Positions 606-12,125 of a stretch of DNA of 12,383 nucleotides are shown in pieces (the first letter of the stretch is position 1; each line of letters opens with the position of its first letter). The notes beneath the pieces are model-generated. The model saw only the letters and a list, made by a program, of their open reading frames with translations, did not search any database and was not told the origin of the DNA. The DNA is from Cyclostephanos tholiformis (taxonomy: Eukaryota; Bacillariophyta; Thalassiosirophyceae; Thalassiosirales; Thalassiosiraceae), in contig JALLPB010000878.1 of NCBI GenBank assembly GCA_036939975.1, forward strand, positions 1 to 12,383, in the 5' to 3' direction. The position numbers were made by a program, and so were the translations under genes.

Positions 606-640
606 AAGAGATACAAAAAAGTTAGAGAGGCAGAGACGTT

Positions 641-2307
641 ATGTACCCGTACTACCGCAAAATGTCCGATGGGGAATCCTCGTCCGGCGCGGAACGCCGC
701 GACCCCGCCGCCAACGCTGGCGGTGCCCCGGCGTCGTCATCATCGTCGTCTTCGTCACCGTCGTCTTCATGGTCGATCGTCGACGTCTTCATAACGTCGA
801 TGCTATGCATTTACACCCTGGGCTTCGTCTTCTTCCGCATCGCGGAGATATGGACGTGTTTCTCGTTGTACGGGAGAATTTGCACTTCGGGACTAATCGG
901 TTACTACGCAGTTATCACGTCGTCTCATTCTTCCATCATCGGCATTGGTCGTCGTTCGAGGTATCCCCTCCACGCATTGTGTTTGATGATAATCGTTCAT
1001 TACCTCGATCATCGACTCCCTAAATCGTTGCCATCCCCCCCGGGGGGGAATGACGAGCAATACCGCTCGGGAAAGATCGTAGTTATCACGGGTGCCAACG
1101 CTGGCATCGGATACGAAACATCCAGGCGACTCGCGGTGGATTATGGCATGACGGTGATCATGGGATGTCGATCGACGTCGAAGTGTCGCGTGGCATCGGC
1201 ATCGATAGACGACGAGTTGAGACTGCTGGGGAGGGGGGGGGGGACGACTGGGACGGCGTTTGGCGGGGGGGGGGGGGGGGGGATACGTCATACCGATGAA
1301 TATCGATTTGGTCGATTTCGATTCGGTCAAATCGTTCGCGCTCGAATTGGATAGGCGTAACGTCGTCGTGGACGTGCTCTTCAATAATGCCGGATACGTA
1401 CCGATATCGGGCACGCCGGTGGACGACGTTACGGGCCTCGAATCGTCCTTCATGTCGATGCATCTAAGTCACCTATATTTGACGGAATTACTATTGAGAC
1501 GTAATCCGAAATTAAGGGTCGTCAATACCTCGAGTGGCACGCATCACATTTGCGCGTTACTGAATTCGATGAATTATTATATTATGTTCTCGAGAACGAC
1601 GCTCGGTATTCGTGGCGATGGCCACGGTGGCGGCGGTGGTGGTTGCATAAACGACGGATTCTTCGTGCGTGGGTGGAATTCGGCTACGGATGGTCGGGCG
1701 TACATACGGGCCAAGTTGGCGAACGTTATGCACGTCGTCGAACTGCCGCGACGTCATCCGGAGGCAACGGCGATCGTTGTCGACCTTGGATGGGTCGGTA
1801 CCTCCATCCAGCCTTTCATGACTGGGTCGATATTTGTGAGTTCTGTTTCCGACCGTTTGATCGCCTTGAGATGGATGATGATTGTAGGCGAGATTTATGT
1901 TTTCTTCTTCTTTTTTTCTTAGCACTTTTCTCGCCGCCTCGTTTTTTTTTGTATTTTCGACGACGGGCACGCGACGACGATCGCCGTTTTTGGAAAAAAC
2001 ACACAAGACCCCCGCGAATCTCGGCATGATGCGCAGCGCACGCGTCGGGATTCATCCCGTCCTGATTGCCGTATTGTCGAGCGAAGCGAGGCTTTGCGAC
2101 GACTTGGACGTCGGTAGGAAATTGAACGACGCGGGGATATCGTTGGACTCGTTCGGTCGATCGACGGAGGCGTTCACGGCGGGATGGTGGTGGAAGAAAT
2201 ACGAAGGCGGTGGAGAGGATATGAGCAGGGATGGCATGTTGAGGATTGGCGAGAGGTTGTGGGACGAGTCGGTGAAGATATTACAAGACCACGGACATCT
2301 TCTCTAA
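641..2307 (+). CDS. Membrane-anchored short-chain dehydrogenase/reductase (retinol-dehydrogenase type), reading frame interrupted
   Basis: An SDR expected to oxidise or reduce a lipophilic alcohol or carbonyl with NAD(P)(H), probably at a membrane. The start at 641 (Met-Tyr-Pro-Tyr) is followed by a Ser-rich stretch, then hydrophobic segments at about residues 45-65 and 108-120, then the Rossmann motif TGANAGIG. Further on come the NNAG motif, a catalytic-Ser region (NTSSG) and the YxxxK pair in AYIRAKLAN. The C-terminal LWDESVKIL matches the end of retinol-dehydrogenase-like SDRs. Two breaks exist. The frame changes between the Rossmann motif and NNAG, where G11 (1233-1243) and G18 (1265-1282) tracts encode poly-Gly; one G too many would explain it. 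The last exon needs an intron after FMTGSIF. The best fit is 1836-2007 (GTGAGT...AAG), which restores normal family spacing; acceptors at 1887 (same donor) or 1922 (donor 1826) are alternatives that would keep a T-rich hydrophobic segment. With one base removed the product is about 497 aa, longer than usual (about 320) through the N-terminus and low-complexity inserts. Substrate unknown. Confidence 0.8.
1035..1048. repeat. C7G7 perfect palindrome
   Basis: Seven C followed directly by seven G form a 14-bp self-complementary tract inside the SDR coding region. It encodes Pro-Pro-Gly-Gly just before the Rossmann fold. It may be a difficult template for sequencing. Confidence 0.8.
1233..1282. repeat. 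Two homopolymeric G tracts (G11 and G18)
   Basis: G runs at 1233-1243 and 1265-1282 flank a 21-bp spacer within the SDR gene. The coding frame upstream (codons starting at 641 + 3n) differs by one base from the frame downstream, so a length change in one of these tracts explains the break. This may be a sequencing or assembly error, allelic slippage, or a true mutation. Confidence 0.85.
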
Positions 2308-2581
2308 ATGCTGACTACGTATTCATATTCCATGATGGTCTAAAAGCTACACCGCGTAACTCGCTCCTGACGACGCCTAGATTAACGGACTATATGTGTC
2401 GAACTTTTCAAATAGCTACACTGCGCTGTGCTGCGTCATGCGTTTGTTTGGACCGATCGATGAGGCGGGATCTATTCGTTTGGCAAGACGGTGGATATGG
2501 GTATTATTTAAGCGCTAGGGTCTCAACACCCAGATAAAATTTAAAAACTGATCTGGGTGTCTCTCACTGTGAGCATTATCG
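2308..2581. promoter_or_regulatory. Spacer and presumed promoter/5' leader of the IDO-reductase fusion gene
   Basis: This 274-bp gap separates the SDR stop codon from the next ATG on the same strand, so it must contain the SDR 3' end and the promoter of the following gene. An AT-rich TATTATTTAA stretch near 2503-2512 could be a TATA-like element, and a perfect inverted repeat follows at 2526-2560. An in-frame stop at 2570 fixes the first possible Met of the next gene at 2582. Confidence 0.45.
2526..2560. repeat. Perfect 10-bp inverted repeat (hairpin) 21 bp before the fusion-gene ATG
   Basis: The arms ACACCCAGAT (2526-2535) and ATCTGGGTGT (2551-2560) are exact reverse complements separated by a 15-nt A/T-rich loop. 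In RNA this could form a stem-loop in the 5' leader of the fusion gene; in DNA it could be a dyad site for a transcription factor. No family match is recognised. Confidence 0.7.
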
Positions 2582-5500
2582 ATGATCCAGAGCCAAGAAA
2601 TACTATATAAATTCATGCCGCAAGAAGTCACGTCCCCCCGCGAGGCCGTCATAATGGCTCAGGAGATCAACGCAAGAGAAGGGAATGAGAACCAGGGATT
2701 TCTGTCATTCTCACATGGCTTTGCACCGCGTATCACTCCTGTAACGCACTTTCCGCCCGAGTTCGATGTTTGGAACAAGCTCGTCGACAAGTTACCATGG
2801 TTGGTCAGTTCAAGGAGGCTTCGTTTGTACTGTGATAGTCATGACACCCTGCCGGTGATGGATGCAACTCGTCTGCCGGCCATATTCGCCCTCCGCGCGG
2901 CCAATGTTTTGGGATTCACCGCCCACGCCTATTGGAATTTAGGAGAAGTGCCAGAGGGGAAGAAATTGCCCGATGGCCTCGAGGTTCCATGGCAAACTGT
3001 GAGCAAATACCATCTGGGACGACAGGACACACACTTCCTTGGCTTTTTCGAACAGATAACTGCCAACTTCCGGTTTCAGGAGGGAAGGGTCCCGCCTCCA
3101 CCACACTGCGCTGAACCCTGCCCATGGTTGACGGATGAGCTGGTCAAGTACGGAAGCGTCGAATACAACCCAGCAGAGGCGAATGTTGGCAACTGCGACC
3201 CCAGTCTCTTGCTTTCAGGCACGCAAGAGGAGAAGAATTTTTTCGGCGTAGTGACCGAGATGCAGCTGGCCGGGGCGCCGGCTGTCAAGCTTGTTGTCGA
3301 CGCTCAAGAGGCTGCAGCTGCCAATGATGTGACAAAGTTGAAGGGCACATTTGAGAATTTATTAAATATTTTGCGAGCGTTGACCTTCAACGTATTGAGT
3401 AAGATTCAACAACAAAGAAAGGCGCCTCATCATATCAATGCAGCCGTGTGGTGCAAGATAGTCGCTCCTATAGCGGTTCCAATCACAAGTACGAACCTTG
3501 GACCATCAGGCACTGCGTCACCCCTAATTCATCTGTTCGATTTCTTCTTTGGGCGTATCAAGCATGAGGGTTTTATTGGAAGAGAAATACAAGGTCTCTT
3601 CAAAAGCTTCCCACCAAACTGGACGAACTTTCTACTTGCTGTGAAGAATGGGCCCAATATTCCATCATTCGTCTACGACTCTGGTGATAGAGAACTCCAA
3701 GGCTTGTTTGGAGCCTGTCTTCAGCAGTACGCCGGAGAGAACGGCTTTCTCGGTAGACACAAGCTAAAAATGTTGGGGTACATTGAGGTCGCAATGAAAC
3801 TGGGCCGTGAAAACACAATTGGGGGCATCGCTGGTTTACTGAAGGACAGGTATGAGAATCACTTTTTGCTTGTTGTCCTGTTTTTGCTCGTCTCCAATAC
3901 TTAATCATCTCGGCTGAATTTGCGCACCCAAGAGCGTGGGATAAAATTGGTGATCATTTGAAAGTTGGACAAGATGAAAGGTTTGCCATCCCCATCAAAG
4001 CTGGTGGTCTGTACCATGTCGGGAAGATAATTCCAATACCAGAGAAAGATCTTAGAGGTCAAAGCGCAACTTCATATCATATTAGAATTGATGTAAAAGA
4101 TGCAGGCATCCGAGTCGTTCCTGGGTCTCATGTTGGGATTCTTTACGAATCAAACGCAGCAGAGATTCACAAGACTCTGCTTGCTTTCGCGGATGGAGAT
4201 GTAAACAAAGCTAAGGTAGGTAGTATTATGATAAAATTTCATCCGATATTACAGTGCTCACTGATGTCTCTTTTTATCTTACTTGCATTCTTATAGGCTC
4301 TCGGAGAGGAATACATGGTGGATCTCGATCTTTCGTGGATCAAAGCACTGCGACAACGACAAGAGTATCACGAAACCACTGGTTGCGATGACCCCAGTCT
4401 TCCTCATAAACTTCCGTTGAGTGAATTTCTCAAGTACGGTGAGCTGCGTCCAGCAAGCCGCCGGATGCTGCAGCTGGCATATCAAGCATCACATTCGAAT
4501 GAGATCCTTTCTATCTTGAATGCGGATCTGGACGCCGCATTGACGTTTTCTGATGTAGTTACAATCTTGAGAAGAGAACAAGTTGACCTGCTCCGGGTTA
4601 GTGAGATGCATAGCATCAACCTTGCAGCAATCGAAGAAAATCTCAAACTGCTGAAAAATGATGGAGGCAGGCGTGGAGGAGGTATCAAAGTTGCACGAGG
4701 TACCATTTTAAAGGGTACTGGATTGACACCACATCAGGAGGCAAGACTTACTATTGTGTCAACTTCCATGCAAGCAGCGTGTGATAAAGTGTTACGTGTG
4801 GTGCAGCAGATTCCAAGGCTCTGTGAGGTAAGCTGTTACATCGATGACCACCAAACCGCCTTATTCATGTGCTTACTCATGACGTGACTTGTCTAACCTC
4901 TGTTGCATCCTTGCATGAAAAGTTGGTCAAACCGTCAGGATTCAGGCATTACTCTGGTAAGGGGCTAAAGAATATTTTTTGACCGTGTCATATGACATTT
5001 TGCTTTCCAATCGTCATCCAATCTCACTATTTGATGCTTTTCTCCAGTTGCATCATCTTCACTTGTTCACCAAAACGAGATTCACCTTTATGTGGAGCAC
5101 TTGAAGTATCAAACAAAATCTGCAGTTGTTAGGTCATCTCCACTCCTTGCTGACACGCACGAGCTAGTCCAACAACGCGGGACTGCGTCAGATTATATCG
5201 TGTCAAAGTCGTTACCTCGTCCTTATATCGCTATCGATATTATGGAGTGTCTAGCCGGCTTAAAGCTTGATGATGATTACGAAAGAAAGGTTGAGGATTT
5301 GAAATTCAACCTCTCTGAAGAGTGGAAACGATTGCTGAAATACCATGCGCATCTTGATGATGGAGAGATCAACTCAATTGTGGAGCGAGCGAGCGGCTAC
5401 AGCGGAGGTCAGGCCATGTTCAAAAATCTCATCCGGGCCATAAATGACGAAATCAGCGAGACCGCTGATCCAAGAGATATGTCGGTTGTGTTGAAAACTT

Positions 5501-7433
5501 ACGAATCTCCTAGGTTCCGCCTTCCAACTTCCATAATGTCCAACCCACAACCAATAATCATGATCGCGGGGGGGACTGGTCTTGCTCCTTTCAGAGGTTT
5601 GTTTAACGTTTGTGGCGATTCATACTTTGTCCTTTCTAGAATTCTCCTCACTTCTAATTTTCCACCTTCGTTGGACACATACAGCATTTTGGCAGCAACT
5701 CGCCATGGCTCCACGCCCAGCCAATGGTTATAAACATCTCTTAATCGTTGGGCAGCGTACAAGGAAGAACATGCCATTCGAGAATGAGATTCTTGCTATG
5801 GTGATGGCTAATATCTTAGATGTAGAAATAATTTTCAGCGCAGACGAATGTAAGCCCAGTTTCAGTGGAAATGAAATTACCTATGAAGACATCCCGGGCC
5901 GCAAAGGCTACATCGATAAAGTCATCCGAGATGTGGCAGTCGAAGAACGTCTTGCGAAAATGATCGAAAATGGTGCTTTCTTGTTTCTTTGTGGAACGGG
6001 TGCTTTGGCCAGGACTGCTTTGGATGCAATCGACAGCTGCCTTTGCAACAGGTTCGGTGAGATTCACGGAAAGGAGTTGTTAGAGAAAATGGTGGCTGAG
6101 AATCGCTTGGTGAGTTTAACGTGCTTAAGAAATCCTCTCTTTGGTACATTTTGGTTGATTTGTTTCCGCCTTTCTGATTGCGCCTCACGTGTTCGCCCTA
6201 ACGAACAGGTGCTAGACATATTCACGAGTCTGAAGCAACCTAAGACGAGGGGGACGATCGATTTTTCTGAGCTGTGCCAGTGCAACGATTTTGTTGGCGT
6301 GCGCAAAGGAAAGGGCAAGGAGAAGCGACTACTCCTAGTCATTAATGCTGGTGTGTACGACATGAAGAAATTGTTTTCGTTGCACCCAGGCGGGGATTCA
6401 ATGTTGAAGCTCTACTGTGGAATGGATGCCACGAAGGCCTGGAATGCTGTTAAGCACAGTGAAACTCCAGAGGTAGCTGCCATGCTCGAAATGTTTGACA
6501 CGAAACAGCACCTCCGAAACGTAGAGTGAGTTCGACCTTTCTTTTCAGTAAGTTTTATCGAAGTGTCGATTCTTAATTCCAAGTATGATCTTATTTATTT
6601 CCTCCAGGATAAATCTTGTAGATGGCGAGAATGACTGGTACAGACACGGATGGAAAGCCATGACGAACACCTTGGTAGAAATACAAAATGCTATAAGTTT
6701 GGCGTTTGAGAAGAACTGGGACAGTGGAACCTATTCGCTGGCCGAAAAAGATCTCGGGGAACACTTCACCGTATGGGAGAGAAAGGCAGTGTGGAGATCG
6801 AAGTGCTCACTTCTGAAGGGTGAATTTTTCATCTCCACCCACAACCGTCTATGGTCTCTTTTCCTCCCAACTCTGTTCGGGGATGATTTCGATGAGCTCC
6901 TAAGCGGTATGGGTGACCGGACGGACTACTACGACCTCAGAATGGAAAAGTTGCAGGATAAAGAAGAGCACCGAATATGTGATGTCATATTCCCTTTGCT
7001 CAAACAAGAGCTGGATCGGGTATCGGTAGCAGCGGTGGAAGACATTGCCGTGCCTGCTGAGCTTCATGCATTAATGGAAGAAGTACGCAGCGTGGACGAT
7101 GCTCTCCTCGAAGGCATCAAGTCGTACCTTATTGCAGGACTTGCGGTCTTTGAAAATCACAAGAGCCCGCTCTTGCCAGCCTTCCACGCAAACTTTGATA
7201 GCTGCATTGTTGGGATCTTGAATGAATTCGATATTTTCATGTCCAAATTAGCCTTACTCGTCATCACATATTTTGGCGACGAAAAAGTGAAACGAGTTGC
7301 CGATAGGCCAAATGTAAAGCGAGGAGGTCTGGGTGGTGATGTTGATCATACCATTCGGCATCTGACGGACAAGGACGAAATGATAATCCGCGGGCAGGTG
7401 ACGCCCAAGTGCCCAATGCATCTCGGATCATGA
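2582..7433 (+). CDS. Fusion protein: IDO-like heme domain + FAD/NADPH reductase (no FMN domain) + cytochrome b5 + unknown C-terminal domain
   Basis: Predicted 1410-aa self-sufficient heme oxygenase-like protein. Exons by eye: 2582-3849, 3933-4215, 4297-4827, 4923-4956, 5048-5596, 5685-6109, 6209-6525, 6608-7433; all introns are GT-AG with matching phases. Residues about 45-423 align with indoleamine 2,3-dioxygenase: a Tyr in HAYWNLG (Y117, like IDO1 Y126), F220-F221 (like F163-F164) and proximal heme ligand H393 in GRHKLKM. The IDO1 Arg231 position is A295. Residues about 435-1037 form a P450 reductase/NOS-type FAD domain with its helical connecting segment, FAD motif R702-H-Y-S705, NADPH motif GGTGLAPFRAFWQQ (880-893), C991-G, D1033 and the FAD-stacking aromatic F1035. 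No flavodoxin domain precedes it. Residues about 1071-1127 are cytochrome b5, with HPGG (H1089) and second heme ligand H1113 at the standard 24-residue spacing. Residues 1137-1410 are mostly helical-looking, unrecognised, and end near a Cys-Pro-Met-His. No targeting peptide is apparent. Likely electron path: NADPH, FAD, b5 heme, IDO heme (inference). Substrate unknown; not a nitric oxide synthase, since that oxygenase fold is absent. Confidence 0.88.
6110..6208 (+). other. Stop-free 99-nt intron within the fusion gene
   Basis: This GT-AG intron (GTGAGT...ACAG) has a length divisible by three and no in-frame stop, so the frame stays open whether or not it is removed. Removal joins ENRL to VLDIFTS, restoring the conserved reductase ending that places an aromatic residue on FAD. 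Retention would insert 33 residues at that point. Homology therefore favours splicing. Confidence 0.75.
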
Positions 7434-7590: not shown

Positions 7591-8852
7591 TTAACGAACG
7601 CGTTCCACTGCTCTCAGCCTCGCCGTCCTCGATCGTCCGTTCTTTTTCACCTCCTCAAATGTCGGACGCAACCCATCCTCCTCGGGCGTCAAAAGCCGAT
7701 ATCGTCCCGTATCGACCATGCGAGCCATGCCCTCCCTGACCAATCGGTCCTCGCCGGGATGGAACGCAATGGCAACCAGACGACCACCCATCGCCAAACA
7801 GCACCCCGGTGATGACGACGACGGCGAGGGTGTAAGAATCGACTTGAAGAGCGCCTCGATGTGATTGAGTTCATCATTCGCGGCTATTCGCAATGCCTGG
7901 AAGCATCTCATGACGTGGTTCGGATGGCGCGGCTTGCGCTCCTCGTACTTAAAAAGGAGTTTGTTCATCTTTTGCCTCGATAGTGGCATCCTTCCGGTCG
8001 GGGGCGGACGCCATATGGCACGATATCGCTCGAAATCATCCTTCTTCTCCTTTTTCTTCTGCGCGTCTCGGTCGTCCTTCTCATTTGTGTAGTGGTTGTT
8101 GGCGTTCATTGATGCAACGATACCCTCGACGGCCTCCTCGATGACGTACCGTAATTCGAGCGTGGATCGGATTCCTCCCCTTTCCCAGGGTAGGGATTCT
8201 CTCCACTTGACGATGCCGCCGGCGATCTCGACCGCATACGGCTCGTCGGCGTACGTCTTGAATATGCGCGATAGTTGGGATACCGACCATCGGTTCACTA
8301 TATCCCCCGCCTCGATGGACCTCCACTTGCCGGACTCGGTCCCACCCGTCGGTGGAGATGAAACATCAAACCTCATATCCAACGGGCCGCGTTTCCGGAA
8401 TGTGAATCCGCGCTCGTCGTCGTCGAGCTGATCCGAATTCATCCCAAGGTCGATGAGCATACCGTCCACGCCGCTGGTTGGGAAGGAATGTCGACGCAGT
8501 AACCCCGGCGACACGTCGGCGAAGGAACCGTGATGGTATGCCACGCGCGATGGCGCGGCGCGCGACGCGTCGCATTTCTCTGACGACGATGACGACGATG
8601 ACGACGACGAAGAAGGCGACAATGATGATTCGATTTCGATGCGCCTCCTCGCCTTCGAGAGGGCGGTTCCGTCCCTATCGATCCCCAGAACTCGAACGTC
8701 ATACCCCCTCGCGAGGACCGAGGACGTGTGCCCGCCCAGTCCCATAGTTCCGTCGATGAGGTGTATTGTCGTTGAATCGACGACGTCATCGCCGTTTTTT
8801 TCGTTGCATCCGACATCCTCCTCGTCGGCTACATGCACGTCTCCTCCTCCTC

Positions 8853-8888
<36 letters not shown>

Positions 8889-8951
8889 TGTCGGGAAGCC
8901 AAAGGCGGAGCACCTCATCCCGCATCACCGGGATGTGGGACGAGGCCAGGC

Positions 8952-8982
<31 letters not shown>

Positions 8983-9228
8983 ATTCGTCGACGTCGCTCG
9001 TCGTCCGTCGAGCCCCCTCGAGGACGACGACGACGACGATGACGACGACGAACGGGGCCACGAAACGGACGACGAGGTCGCGACGGCGGCGACGACCGGC
9101 CCCTCGACGTGCGGCGCTATTATTCGTCGGATGGATCGGCGTTGGGGGGTCGGATGGAACGGGGCGGTTATGGCGTCGGCGAAGATAAGGAGGGACGAGC
9201 GACGCAGCGAACCCTGGAGTCGATTCAT
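7591..9228 (-). CDS. RsmH/MraW-type 16S rRNA (cytosine-N4) methyltransferase, organellar
   Basis: S-adenosylmethionine-dependent enzyme that, in bacteria, methylates N4 of cytidine 1402 (E. coli numbering) in the ribosomal decoding site; here it presumably acts on plastid or mitochondrial small-subunit rRNA. The single exon encodes 545 aa. Family blocks in order: HIPVMRDEVL (about residue 98), the SAM-binding DGTMGLGGHT (about 159), LGIDRD, DLGMNSDQLDD (about 260), ERGFTFRKRGPLDMRFD, YADEPYAVEIA (about 326), FQALRIAANDEL and AIAFHPGEDR near the C-terminus. The ATG at 9228 is chosen because the frame upstream holds only non-ATG codons. The N-terminus (MNRLQGSLRRSS) is basic and Ser-rich like an organelle presequence. 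The protein is much longer than the bacterial form (about 310 aa) because runs of Ser, Ala, Arg-Gly and Asp/Glu separate the conserved blocks, each encoded by a trinucleotide repeat. It is convergent with the fusion gene (157 bp between stops) and divergent from the urea channel gene. Family assignment is firm; compartment is inferred. Confidence 0.95.
8582..8608. repeat. (GAC/GAT)9 microsatellite encoding a Ser run
   Basis: Nine GAC/GAT units on the + strand are read on the - strand as TCG/TCA, giving the poly-Ser insert between the SAM-binding block and the DLGMNSDQLDD block of the methyltransferase. Confidence 0.85.
8842..8888. repeat. (TCC)n-(TCG)n compound microsatellite encoding Gly and Arg runs
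   Basis: A TCC tract (about 8842-8855) runs into a perfect TCG tract (8854-8888, nearly 12 units). On the - strand these give four Gly and twelve Arg, inserted directly after the first methyltransferase block (HIPVMRDEVLRLWLPD). Confidence 0.9.
8953..8982. repeat. (GGC)10 microsatellite encoding poly-Ala
   Basis: Ten perfect GGC units read as GCC (Ala) on the - strand, just before the HIPVM block of the methyltransferase. Confidence 0.9.
9023..9049. repeat. (GAC/GAT)9 microsatellite encoding a Ser run
   Basis: Nine units with one GAT interruption encode poly-Ser in the N-terminal region of the methyltransferase, between the presumed presequence and the poly-Ala tract. Confidence 0.85.
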
Positions 9229-9462: not shown

Positions 9463-9538
9463 CTCGCTTAGAAACGTTCTCCCCTGTTTCCTCTTTCGTC
9501 TCTGGCGAATTTCCGATTGAGCTCCTTCAACCTTGACA

Positions 9539-10735
9539 ATGACGAGGCTCATATCGTTGGCCACTTCTTGCTGCCACCGACGAAGACCGTCGATGTGGTA
9601 CCGCCGGGTCGCCTTCTCCGGATATAACGACTCCGTCCAATGCGTCTTCCGTGCGTTCACTTCCACCCCATCATATAACCAGGAGAACGAACATGTCTCG
9701 CCCCCTCAGTCGTCTCTTGAAATTACTCCGGCGGGAAAGGGTGCCCCCCCTCCCGCGGTAGATCTTGGCCCGATCGAGGTCGCCAGCAAATCGATGGGAC
9801 AGGTGATATTCCTCGGTTCGCCGGCTTCGGGGGGTGTTATATTCGCGAGCCTCGCACTTGGGGATCCGAAGCTTGCGGCATTCGCGGCCCTGGGCGCCAT
9901 CACCGCCAATACGACGTCGAGGATCATTGGACTCGATGGGGAGACTTGGAATGACGGACTTTGGGGGTACAACGGCGCCCTCGTTGGCTGTGCCGCTTCG
10001 GTCTTTGGTCCGGCGTATTTTCCATACGCGGTTATTTCTACCCTGATCGGTGCCGCGGCAGCCCCCTTGGTCTCTGCGTCTCTCAAGGGCGCGTTATCCC
10101 AGCCTCAGTGGACTTGGTCCTTCAACATCGTGGCGCTGACATCTCTACTGCGCACGCGACCCCTCCTCCCGAATACAAACGATGATGACGTCGCAACTCC
10201 CACGACGGTTTTTGAGGACGTGCAAAAACTGCTCGAGACCTACGGGACGAGCGTGAACTCCCTTACTGCCGGTGTCGAGCCGGTCCTATTATCCCCCCTC
10301 ACCGGGATATCTCAAATTTTCGTGGTCAATTCGTCCTTGACGGGAGCAGGAATTTTGGCCGCGACCGCCATGTACTCGCCGATGTTGGCCCTTCATGCGG
10401 TGGGAGGATGTGCAACGGGAAGTGCCGTGGGTTATCTGTTGGGAGCTGATGTTACTGCTATATCCGACGGATTGTGGGGTTACAATTCATGCCTCGCGTC
10501 GATGGCCGTGGGCGTCTTCTTTGTGAACTCTCCCCAAACGATGGTTTTGAGCGCCACGAACGCTGCGGCGTCGGCTGCTCTGTTCGGGGCGATGGGGCCC
10601 ATATTTGGCGCATATGGAGTCCCCTGTCTTACACTGCCGTTTTGTATAGTTGCCACTGCATCCTATCTGCTTGAGGGGCACATCCCTGGCCTGAAACTTG
10701 CCAAAAATCCTCATTCTCCAGAAAAGAACAAGTAG
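9539..10735 (+). CDS. Urea channel/transporter of the UT (SLC14) family with N-terminal presequence
   Basis: Passive urea channel. The 398-aa protein shows the internal duplication typical of the family: the first half has SKSMGQVIFLGSPASGG, then DGLWGYNGALVG (about 139-150) and WSFNIVAL; the second half has GISQIFVVNSSLTGAG, then DGLWGYNSCLASMAVG (about 310-325). Hydrophobic segments fill about 85-200 and 245-380. The ATG at 9539 is used because the in-frame codon just upstream is TTG. The protein exceeds bacterial homologues (about 330 aa) by a basic N-terminus: residues 1-40 hold seven Arg, one Asp and no Glu, and end in R38-A-F/T-S, which fits the R-3 type mitochondrial processing site. 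This suggests the mitochondrial inner membrane rather than the plasma membrane, relevant because diatoms run a urea cycle. No intron is needed. It shares a promoter region with the methyltransferase and converges on the downstream gene (197 bp between stops). Family sure; location inferred. Confidence 0.92.
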   Translation: MTRLISLATSCCHRRRPSMWYRRVAFSGYNDSVQCVFRAFTSTPSYNQENEHVSPPQSSLEITPAGKGAPPPAVDLGPIEVASKSMGQVIFLGSPASGGVIFASLALGDPKLAAFAALGAITANTTSRIIGLDGETWNDGLWGYNGALVGCAASVFGPAYFPYAVISTLIGAAAAPLVSASLKGALSQPQWTWSFNIVALTSLLRTRPLLPNTNDDDVATPTTVFEDVQKLLETYGTSVNSLTAGVEPVLLSPLTGISQIFVVNSSLTGAGILAATAMYSPMLALHAVGGCATGSAVGYLLGADVTAISDGLWGYNSCLASMAVGVFFVNSPQTMVLSATNAAASAALFGAMGPIFGAYGVPCLTLPFCIVATASYLLEGHIPGLKLAKNPHSPEKNK

Positions 10736-10932: not shown

Positions 10933-12125
10933 CTACCCCCAACTGATGGGATTTCTCCAATCAATTCCCGGAAGATCATCCATGTACTGCGCCCTCGATT
11001 CAGATAACTTGCCGTTTTCATAAATTTGTCTCTGGGCGTCTACCCACTTCATGATTTCAGTGTCTTCGTACACAAGCTCTTTCACCTCCCCTCCAGCCTC
11101 AACAACTTTACTCAAATACGACAATACCTCCCTATATCTCTTCATGAACGAGCTTCCACACTTACGAGTCGAAGTCCATTCGAATCCCACAGCGTCCAAT
11201 TTGTCGATTTGCACCCTGGGCAATTCGTTCTTCTGACGTAAGCGTCGTAGCATAGTAACCCAAGCTCTTACACGCAAAACAATAATTACAGATCAACAAC
11301 GGTTAGTTACTGACGAAAATTTGCGTTTTATGAGTGAGATAAACATTCATCTCGGATATTCAATCGCTCACCCTAGCTCCGGATCCGGTTCGTACTTTTT
11401 CGGAATTTGATATGTTTGGAACTCCTTGTTGTACAAAGACAACTTGAACAACATCTCATCGAAGTCACATTCGTAATAGACATCTTCGAAGGAATGGAAT
11501 CGGAATCCCAATTCAGTCAAGAGGTTGGTCTCATCCTCCGTCAGCATATTCTGGAAATGAAGCCTCCGGAGTGTTTTGCATCTCTTGCCATCGGTGCAAC
11601 CGAGAGGAATATTCGGATTGCCATACTTCTCATTGTGCGCAATGAGGGCCTTACGGAAGAGGAGGAGAATTATCGAGGCAAAGAGAAGGAGAGCTGAGCT
11701 GTACGAATGTGATGACAGTGTCGATGAAGACTATGACGACGACGGCGTCGAAAGTGGGACAGAAATTGGGCACAACTAACATAATCATATGCAGCATCGT
11801 CATCTTATGGCTCAGATCTGAAGTGTCCACGAATTCTCACCGGATAAACTTGGGCGAGGACAGGGTTGACAATGAAGGAAGGGATGGCAATAGTTGATTC
11901 GTTCTCTTCACTCGGCGATGAGGCGGCGAAACAAACGAATGACCCCGTCGTAGTACCGGTCGAGGTCGAGTGAGTGCGGTCCAAATAATGCCCACGAAAT
12001 TGTGTGAAGGAAAATATACGAGGAGGCTCGGCGGTGGTGAACGCCGTTGCCACCGATATCGATGCCGCAAATAGGGCTGCCACACCGCCACGAACCACCA
12101 TCATGGTGCACGGGGCATACACCAT
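10933..12125 (-). CDS. Plastid-targeted(?) protein with three helicase-associated (HA)-like repeats
   Basis: Three exons by eye (12125-11841, 11649-11372, 11266-10933) with GT-AG introns of 191 and 105 bp and compatible phases give 298 aa. Residues 1-28 form a signal peptide with a hydrophobic core and an SVATA end, followed by F29-T-T; this Ala-x-Ala/Phe junction matches the bipartite plastid signal of diatoms, and the next 40 residues are Ser/Thr-rich like a transit peptide. The mature part shows three units of helicase-associated (PF03457-like) pattern: about 96-145 (YGNPNIPLG, ending LGFRF), about 186-218 (LGAWVTMLRR, ending VGFEW) and about 262-291 (WVDAQRQIYENGKLSESR, ending GIDW). Such repeats are abundant in diatom proteins, often without any helicase, as here; nucleic-acid binding is assumed for the family rather than shown. 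The precise role is unknown. The second intron is supported because joining restores the LGAWV motif. Confidence 0.8.

Follow-up and report, generated by a model that had tools for sequence, protein, structure and literature searches.

Several described enzymes hold a heme oxygenase domain and its own reductase in one chain, among them P450BM3/CYP505 and nitric oxide synthase (NOS), whose proximal heme ligand is Cys. Human indoleamine 2,3-dioxygenase (IDO1) is said to be reduced by separate cytochrome b5 and P450 reductase, and the cellular reduction of IDO-type hemes has usually been studied with separate partners. In nitrate reductase and Ncb5or, flavin adenine dinucleotide (FAD) lies next to cytochrome b5 in one chain, and the flavin domain belongs to another family than that of P450 reductase. 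We analyzed a 12,383-nucleotide contig of the diatom Cyclostephanos tholiformis (JALLPB010000878.1, C856 in our numbering; the window is this whole contig). It carries a gene, hereafter the fusion, whose spliced frame joins an IDO-family heme domain (residues 1-422), a reductase for FAD and reduced nicotinamide adenine dinucleotide, phosphorylated or not (NAD(P)H; 423-~1040), a cytochrome b5 (~1041-1135), and a 275-residue C-terminal region, the last being a feature beyond the description given in an earlier note on this DNA.

The fusion is like nitrate reductase and Ncb5or in the adjacency of FAD and b5, but it carries a flavin module of P450-reductase type. The earlier note compared its logic to that of NOS and P450BM3. 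The comparison is apt for a heme domain with its own reductase in one chain, but not for the anatomy: the heme fold is another one, the proximal ligand is His, a b5 is present, and there is no domain for flavin mononucleotide (FMN). Every part is of a known kind, yet we know of no other protein that combines IDO with an FMN-less P450-reductase/b5 relay.

We propose that the product is a self-sufficient, NAD(P)H-driven IDO-fold heme oxygenase that would consume electrons and act on a substrate other than tryptophan, a statement which, taken whole, we consider evenly balanced between right and wrong. More tentatively, it may be the first self-sufficient oxygenase of the IDO fold, with an FMN-less reductase and b5 in the chain, a shift to electron-consuming oxygenation of something other than tryptophan, and an additional C-terminal part without a known fold.

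One Frame from the Heme Domain to Cytochrome b5

Eight exons between 2582 and 7433 (Table 1) join into 4233 nt coding for 1410 aa, with a single stop at the end; the two alternative frames of the spliced message contain 76 and 80 stops. The introns (81-99 bp) are GT-AG in 7/7 cases and the splice phases fit at all seven joints, which bears out the single frame with seven small introns described earlier. The 81-bp and 99-bp introns are multiples of three, the former ending with an in-frame TAG and the latter being open in frame. Splicing out the 99-bp intron lets N-R-L-V-L-D-I-F match the C-terminal end of P450 reductases, which speaks for its removal. This structure suggests a single transcript for the joined frame.

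Intron 1 sits at the joint between heme domain and reductase, where one might instead suspect two genes or an assembly chimera, that is, one gene for a stand-alone IDO-like protein that ends at 3904 and another for the reductase and b5. If intron 1 stays in the message, the IDO frame (stop to stop, 2573-3904) closes at the stop at 3902-3904, 18 codons past exon 1, and leaves a complete-looking protein. The G+C content at third codon positions (GC3) also steps from 0.55 in exon 1 to 0.32 in exon 2 (0.60 in exon 7). However, the frame of exon 2 is open from 3856 on and meets its first ATG only within intron 2 sequence, so that the reductase would lack a start of its own before the FAD barrel, which makes two genes unlikely. 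Moreover, the 28 bp between that stop and exon 2 are too short to hold a separate promoter and 3′ end, and the compatible phases at 7/7 joints also speak against two genes. We therefore regard separate genes or a chimera as highly improbable and a single protein joining the IDO part to the reductase as very probable; an intron-retained, IDO-only product is possible as an alternative.

An IDO-Family Heme Domain with Altered Substrate Residues

The spliced protein matches the Pfam family IDO (PF01231) at E 6.8e-23 (81.5 bits, cut-off 26), and exon 1 alone does so at 85.5 bits. The closest PDB sequences to exon 1 are human IDO2 (E 4.8e-8) and IDO1 (E 3.6e-7); among NCBIfam models exon 1 had no IDO match, the best being unrelated at 10.5 bits. 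In common with IDO1, IDO2, and haloarchaeal IDOs, the domain has a proximal His in F-x3-H-x6-Y, an FF pair, and a GG. Between it and the 7 haloarchaeal IDOs (22-26% identity), F389, H393, Y400, G414, and G415 are invariant. Since H393 is aligned with IDO1 H346 and invariant in all seven, it is the predicted proximal heme ligand; the aligner misplaced its column in the shorter alignment A1. The FF pair F220-F221 corresponds to IDO1 F163-F164. The IDO-like domain with this pair and this His is thus as the earlier note had it.

The residues that handle the substrate are another matter. R231 of IDO1 is a clamp for the carboxylate of tryptophan. Its equivalent in the fusion is Ala295 (MAFFT) or Trp290 (alignment to a hidden Markov model, HMM), and residues 280-324 contain zero Arg, with Lys280 and Lys292 as the only basic Lys/Arg residues. 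At the position of IDO1 S167, which the S167H entry 6cxu defines, both alignments place Val224, and haloarchaeal IDOs have His. The GTGGT loop is degenerate (NTIGG), and an insertion around residues 165-205 is found relative to known IDOs. The haloarchaeal proteins, unlike the fusion, stand alone, without reductase or b5, and keep the Arg and GTGGT in 7/7. Judging from these alignments, the tryptophan-carboxylate Arg appears to have been lost from the fusion.

This apparent loss bears directly on the reading put forward in the earlier note, in which a true tryptophan/indoleamine 2,3-dioxygenase would have a reductase and b5 attached simply to hold its heme ferrous. The best family is indeed IDO, by 81.5 bits against 26, and the proximal His and FF pair are retained. 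A structure search with the model of the IDO domain returned, among the matches shown, IDO entries plus 2nwb. Histidine-ligated heme-dependent aromatic oxygenases are grouped as a superfamily by the helical fold shared with IDO/TDO relatives, and this domain may belong among them. In the assembly (24.95 Mb, 1566 contigs), which its silicon transporters (PF03842, E 4.0e-206) mark as that of a diatom, the IDO family matches in one place only, the fusion, and the family search gave no match to TDO, so if the alga makes kynurenine the fusion is the candidate. Yet the Arg and GTGGT, altered here along with S167, are kept by haloarchaeal IDOs so distant from the fusion, and no match to kynureninase was found in the assembly by a search that gave a signal in 9/14 control genomes, 2 over the cut-off. 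NadA, of the aspartate route to NAD, does match there. What stands of the proposed IDO-family oxygenase is its heme domain with the proximal His, whereas IDO-type catalysis is weakened, and we find a true tryptophan dioxygenase rather unlikely. Because the Arg appears lost, electron-consuming oxygenation of another substrate would be likelier.

A P450-Reductase Module without FMN, Followed by b5

Residues 423-~1040 show the motifs of P450 reductase and CysJ in the same order: FAD barrel strands, a region in the position of the connecting domain, RHYS (RxYS), a tentative GTAS, FRLP, GGTGLAPFRAF (GTGxAPF), CG, and DIF with its Asp and aromatic stacking residue. R702-H-Y-S705, GGTGLAPFRAFWQQ from residue 880, C991-G, D1033, and F1035 are all in place. 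The Ser-Cys-Asp set of reductases of the cytochrome P450 reductase (CPR) type serves hydride transfer; S705, C991, and D1033 align with this triad, and F1035 stands where the stacking Trp sits. The middle part of the protein matches CysJ (E 1.2e-11) and P450 reductase (E 3.3e-11) in PDB. Pfam NAD_binding_1 matches over 877-999 (E 1.4e-7, 32.6 bits, cut-off 22), and exon 6 scores 33.8 bits against an HMM of three diflavin reductases. Exon 2 alone gives a weak FAD_binding_1 match (E 0.017) and aligns to CysJ/CPR barrel strands. Exon 3, with no direct family match, is placed by its position between the barrel and the RxYS motif, and exon 5 has an insertion of ~75 aa, judged from alignments. The diatom carries its own separate P450 reductase, against which blastp gave no better than E 7e-6. 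The flavin parts were compared through the three-reductase HMM and PDB alignments; a three-sequence MAFFT alignment misaligned them and was left unused.

The module differs from P450 reductase and CysJ in its long insertions, in a chain that runs on past F1035 where those proteins end at the stacking residue, and in the lack of a flavodoxin/FMN domain: Flavodoxin_1 is not found in the fusion in Pfam up to E 10, and it is found in 3/3 diflavin comparators (L002, the diatom's own enzyme; L003; L025). It also differs at the 2′-phosphate site, where the Arg that we take to be R597 of rat CPR is replaced by Ala, the subsequent Lys962 and Tyr964 being kept. A preference for NADPH over NADH is therefore uncertain, and of the FAD-NADPH module in the earlier note the named motifs and the NAD_binding_1 match hold, but the choice of NADPH is weakened.

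For the cytochrome b5, PF00173 matches at E 3.9e-10 (40.1 bits, cut-off 23.7; 1.8e-10 in the genome search), the PDB match to cytochrome b5 for the middle part has E 7.4e-6, and both axial His are present as in known b5 proteins, H1089 in HPGG and H1113 at a spacing of 24 residues, in agreement with the initial description.

In outline, flavohemoglobin too combines a heme with FAD and NAD(P)H and has no FMN. The fusion might accordingly handle nitric oxide (NO) or peroxide in the manner of a flavohemoglobin of different fold, the O2-bound IDO-fold heme turning NO into nitrate at the cost of one electron per turnover delivered from NAD(P)H through FAD (and b5), and the loss of an Arg for an organic substrate would suit so small a molecule. 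But the reductase belongs with P450 reductase and CysJ (flavohemoglobin was not compared), and cytochrome b5 would be superfluous in such a scheme, which we consider distinctly unlikely.

Exon 8, with its 275 aa, has no match in Pfam (E<=10), NCBIfam, PHROGs, or PADLOC (E<=1 each). Its single PDB sequence match (E 0.45) was taken as chance, and a single-sequence structure model is all-helical but not reliable (pLDDT, the predicted local distance difference test, 43.6). This unexplained region, together with the lost substrate residues, would fit an IDO-fold heme that is a sensor or catalytically dead, with reductase and b5 serving another partner, for instance an acceptor outside the protein or the C-terminal region itself. 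Against this, the segment with F389, H393, Y400, and GG is kept, which suggests selection on heme binding, and we hold the idea to be very unlikely.

A Proposed Electron Route

The joined frame, its domains, the ligand and hydride-transfer residues, and the absence of an FMN match can be read from the sequence. Since a single frame holds both the heme ligands and the residues for hydride transfer, the fusion is most naturally read as a self-contained electron chain. The product would be one soluble protein of ~158 kDa, in which NADH or NADPH passes hydride to FAD in a P450-reductase-like module whose FMN domain was lost or never present. From FAD, electrons would then move one at a time to the attached cytochrome b5, which would substitute for FMN, and b5 would reduce the heme of the N-terminal IDO-fold domain through H393. 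This heme would bind O2 before the substrate is oxidized. The conserved residues speak for the first parts of this scheme, and the architecture suggests the electron route. A substrate other than tryptophan is suggested by the altered Arg, Ser, and loop and, weakly, by the missing kynurenine genes. Electron-consuming chemistry is suggested by the dedicated reductase, which would be most useful where every turnover spends electrons.

Several observations weigh against this proposal. By returning ferric heme to the reduced state, the reductase would also be of use to a true dioxygenase, and direct transfer from FAD to b5 occurs in other reductase families and is only proposed here. The alignment across R231 has low confidence, with a residue that differs between methods, and K292, near that position, could bind a carboxylate. 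The AlphaFold model of the IDO domain is poor (mean pLDDT 50.7). FAD_binding_1 reaches E 2.2e-6 and 27.9 bits on the spliced protein, under its cut-off of 32.3; insertions that split the match are part of the reason. Finally, the absence of pathway genes is weak evidence: the searches took one exon at a time, the completeness of the assembly is not given, and the search for 3-HAO, with a signal in 0/14 control genomes, is uninformative.

A one-chain version from nature would demonstrate that electrons can travel from NAD(P)H to an IDO-fold heme by way of FAD and b5, and it would test whether this fold supports electron-consuming chemistry. It also touches the question of whether tryptophan is degraded in diatoms at all, and it could offer a self-contained scaffold for biocatalysis that has no relation to P450.

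Search for Relatives

No second copy of the fusion was found in the assembly, where beyond its own exons only a weak b5 stretch matched at E<=1. Other searches covered non-eukaryotic collections (viral contigs, genome contigs, and plasmids), and their results say nothing on how common the fusion is. Among viral contigs, 0 relatives were found from exon 1 (3 stretches matched the pattern), the reductase-b5 part (1 stretch), alignment A2 (12 stretches), or exon 8 (29 stretches). Among genome contigs, exon 1 matched 18 stretches with 0 relatives, and alignment A1 matched 123 stretches that led to the 7 haloarchaeal IDO loci. Plasmid tblastn gave 4 records for exon 1, all haloarchaeal, and 1 record for the reductase part, a Paracoccus sulfite reductase. 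The haloarchaeal IDOs have 380-386 aa and no fused part (7/7 loci); for the one locus tested, the match to human IDO1 lay around 1e-37 to 1e-38. Kynureninase lies close to IDO in 3/3 of the haloarchaeal plasmid regions read (L013, L014, L015; 4 plasmid records matched). These regions hold an archaeal kynurenine gene cluster, with an alpha/beta hydrolase between the two genes in 2 of the 3.

Features of the Window and Other Contigs

Table 1. Exons and landmarks of the fusion gene and neighboring features, in coordinates of the window
Feature	Position	Strand	Content
Exon 1	2582..3849	+	IDO-family heme domain, residues 1-422; Pfam IDO 85.5 bits; PDB IDO2/IDO1
Exon 1 landmarks	~3239-3244; 3464-3466; 3758-3760	+	F220-F221; A295; proximal H393
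Intron 1	3850..3932	+	83 bp, GT..AG; at IDO/reductase joint
Exon 2	3933..4215	+	Reductase start, first FAD beta-barrel strands, residues 423-517; no in-frame ATG
Exon 3	4297..4827	+	Putative connecting (linker) domain of P450-reductase type with insertions, residues 518-694; by position only
Exon 4	4923..4956	+	FAD motif R702-H-Y-S705 (4944-4955), aligned to CPR/CysJ RYYS/RLYS
Exon 5	5048..5596	+	Remaining FAD domain: tentative GTAS (750-753, 5179-5190), FRLP, start of GGTGLAPF
Exon 6	5685..6109	+	NAD(P)H-binding domain; C991 (5990-5992); FSA 939-941; K962, Y964
Exon 7	6209..6525	+	D1033 (6215-6217), stacking F1035 (6221-6223); cytochrome b5 H1089 (6383-6385), H1113 (6455-6457)
Exon 8	6608..7433	+	C-terminal region without a family match (residues 1136-1410); stop at 7431-7433
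Short-chain dehydrogenase	626-2307		adh_short, split over two frames near G runs ~1221-1282
RsmH/MraW	7591-9228	-	16S rRNA methyltransferase, Methyltransf_5 7.5e-46
Urea transporter	9521-10735	+	UT family, PF03253 1.3e-61, intronless frame of ~400 aa
Helicase-associated (HA) domains	10933-11292, 11368-11730	-	Two exons; second below cut-off

The fusion gene is flanked by a short-chain dehydrogenase gene and, on the reverse strand, an RsmH/MraW gene (Table 1). The split of the dehydrogenase match may stem from an intron, a frameshift, or an error in the sequence. The RsmH/MraW protein has long N-terminal low-complexity stretches and is presumably organellar. The GC3 of the fusion gene (0.32-0.60 by exon) is lower than that of RsmH (0.68) and of the urea transporter gene (0.62).

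Other joined or neighboring redox domains were seen in the assembly. On contig C80 (L004, 1145-3052, minus strand), a P450 fragment (PF00067, 1.3e-11) lies upstream of a FAD_binding_1 fragment (4.9e-14) on the same strand. The latter match contains one TAG; together the two pieces may represent a self-sufficient P450 similar to BM3/CYP505. On contig C247 (L033, 835-3195), a cytochrome b5 domain is in frame with a part resembling amine oxidases and FAD-dependent oxidoreductases, and on contig C575 (L036, 871-3129), a single open frame holds both a cytochrome b5 domain and a chitin synthase (Chitin_synth_2, 9.7e-91).

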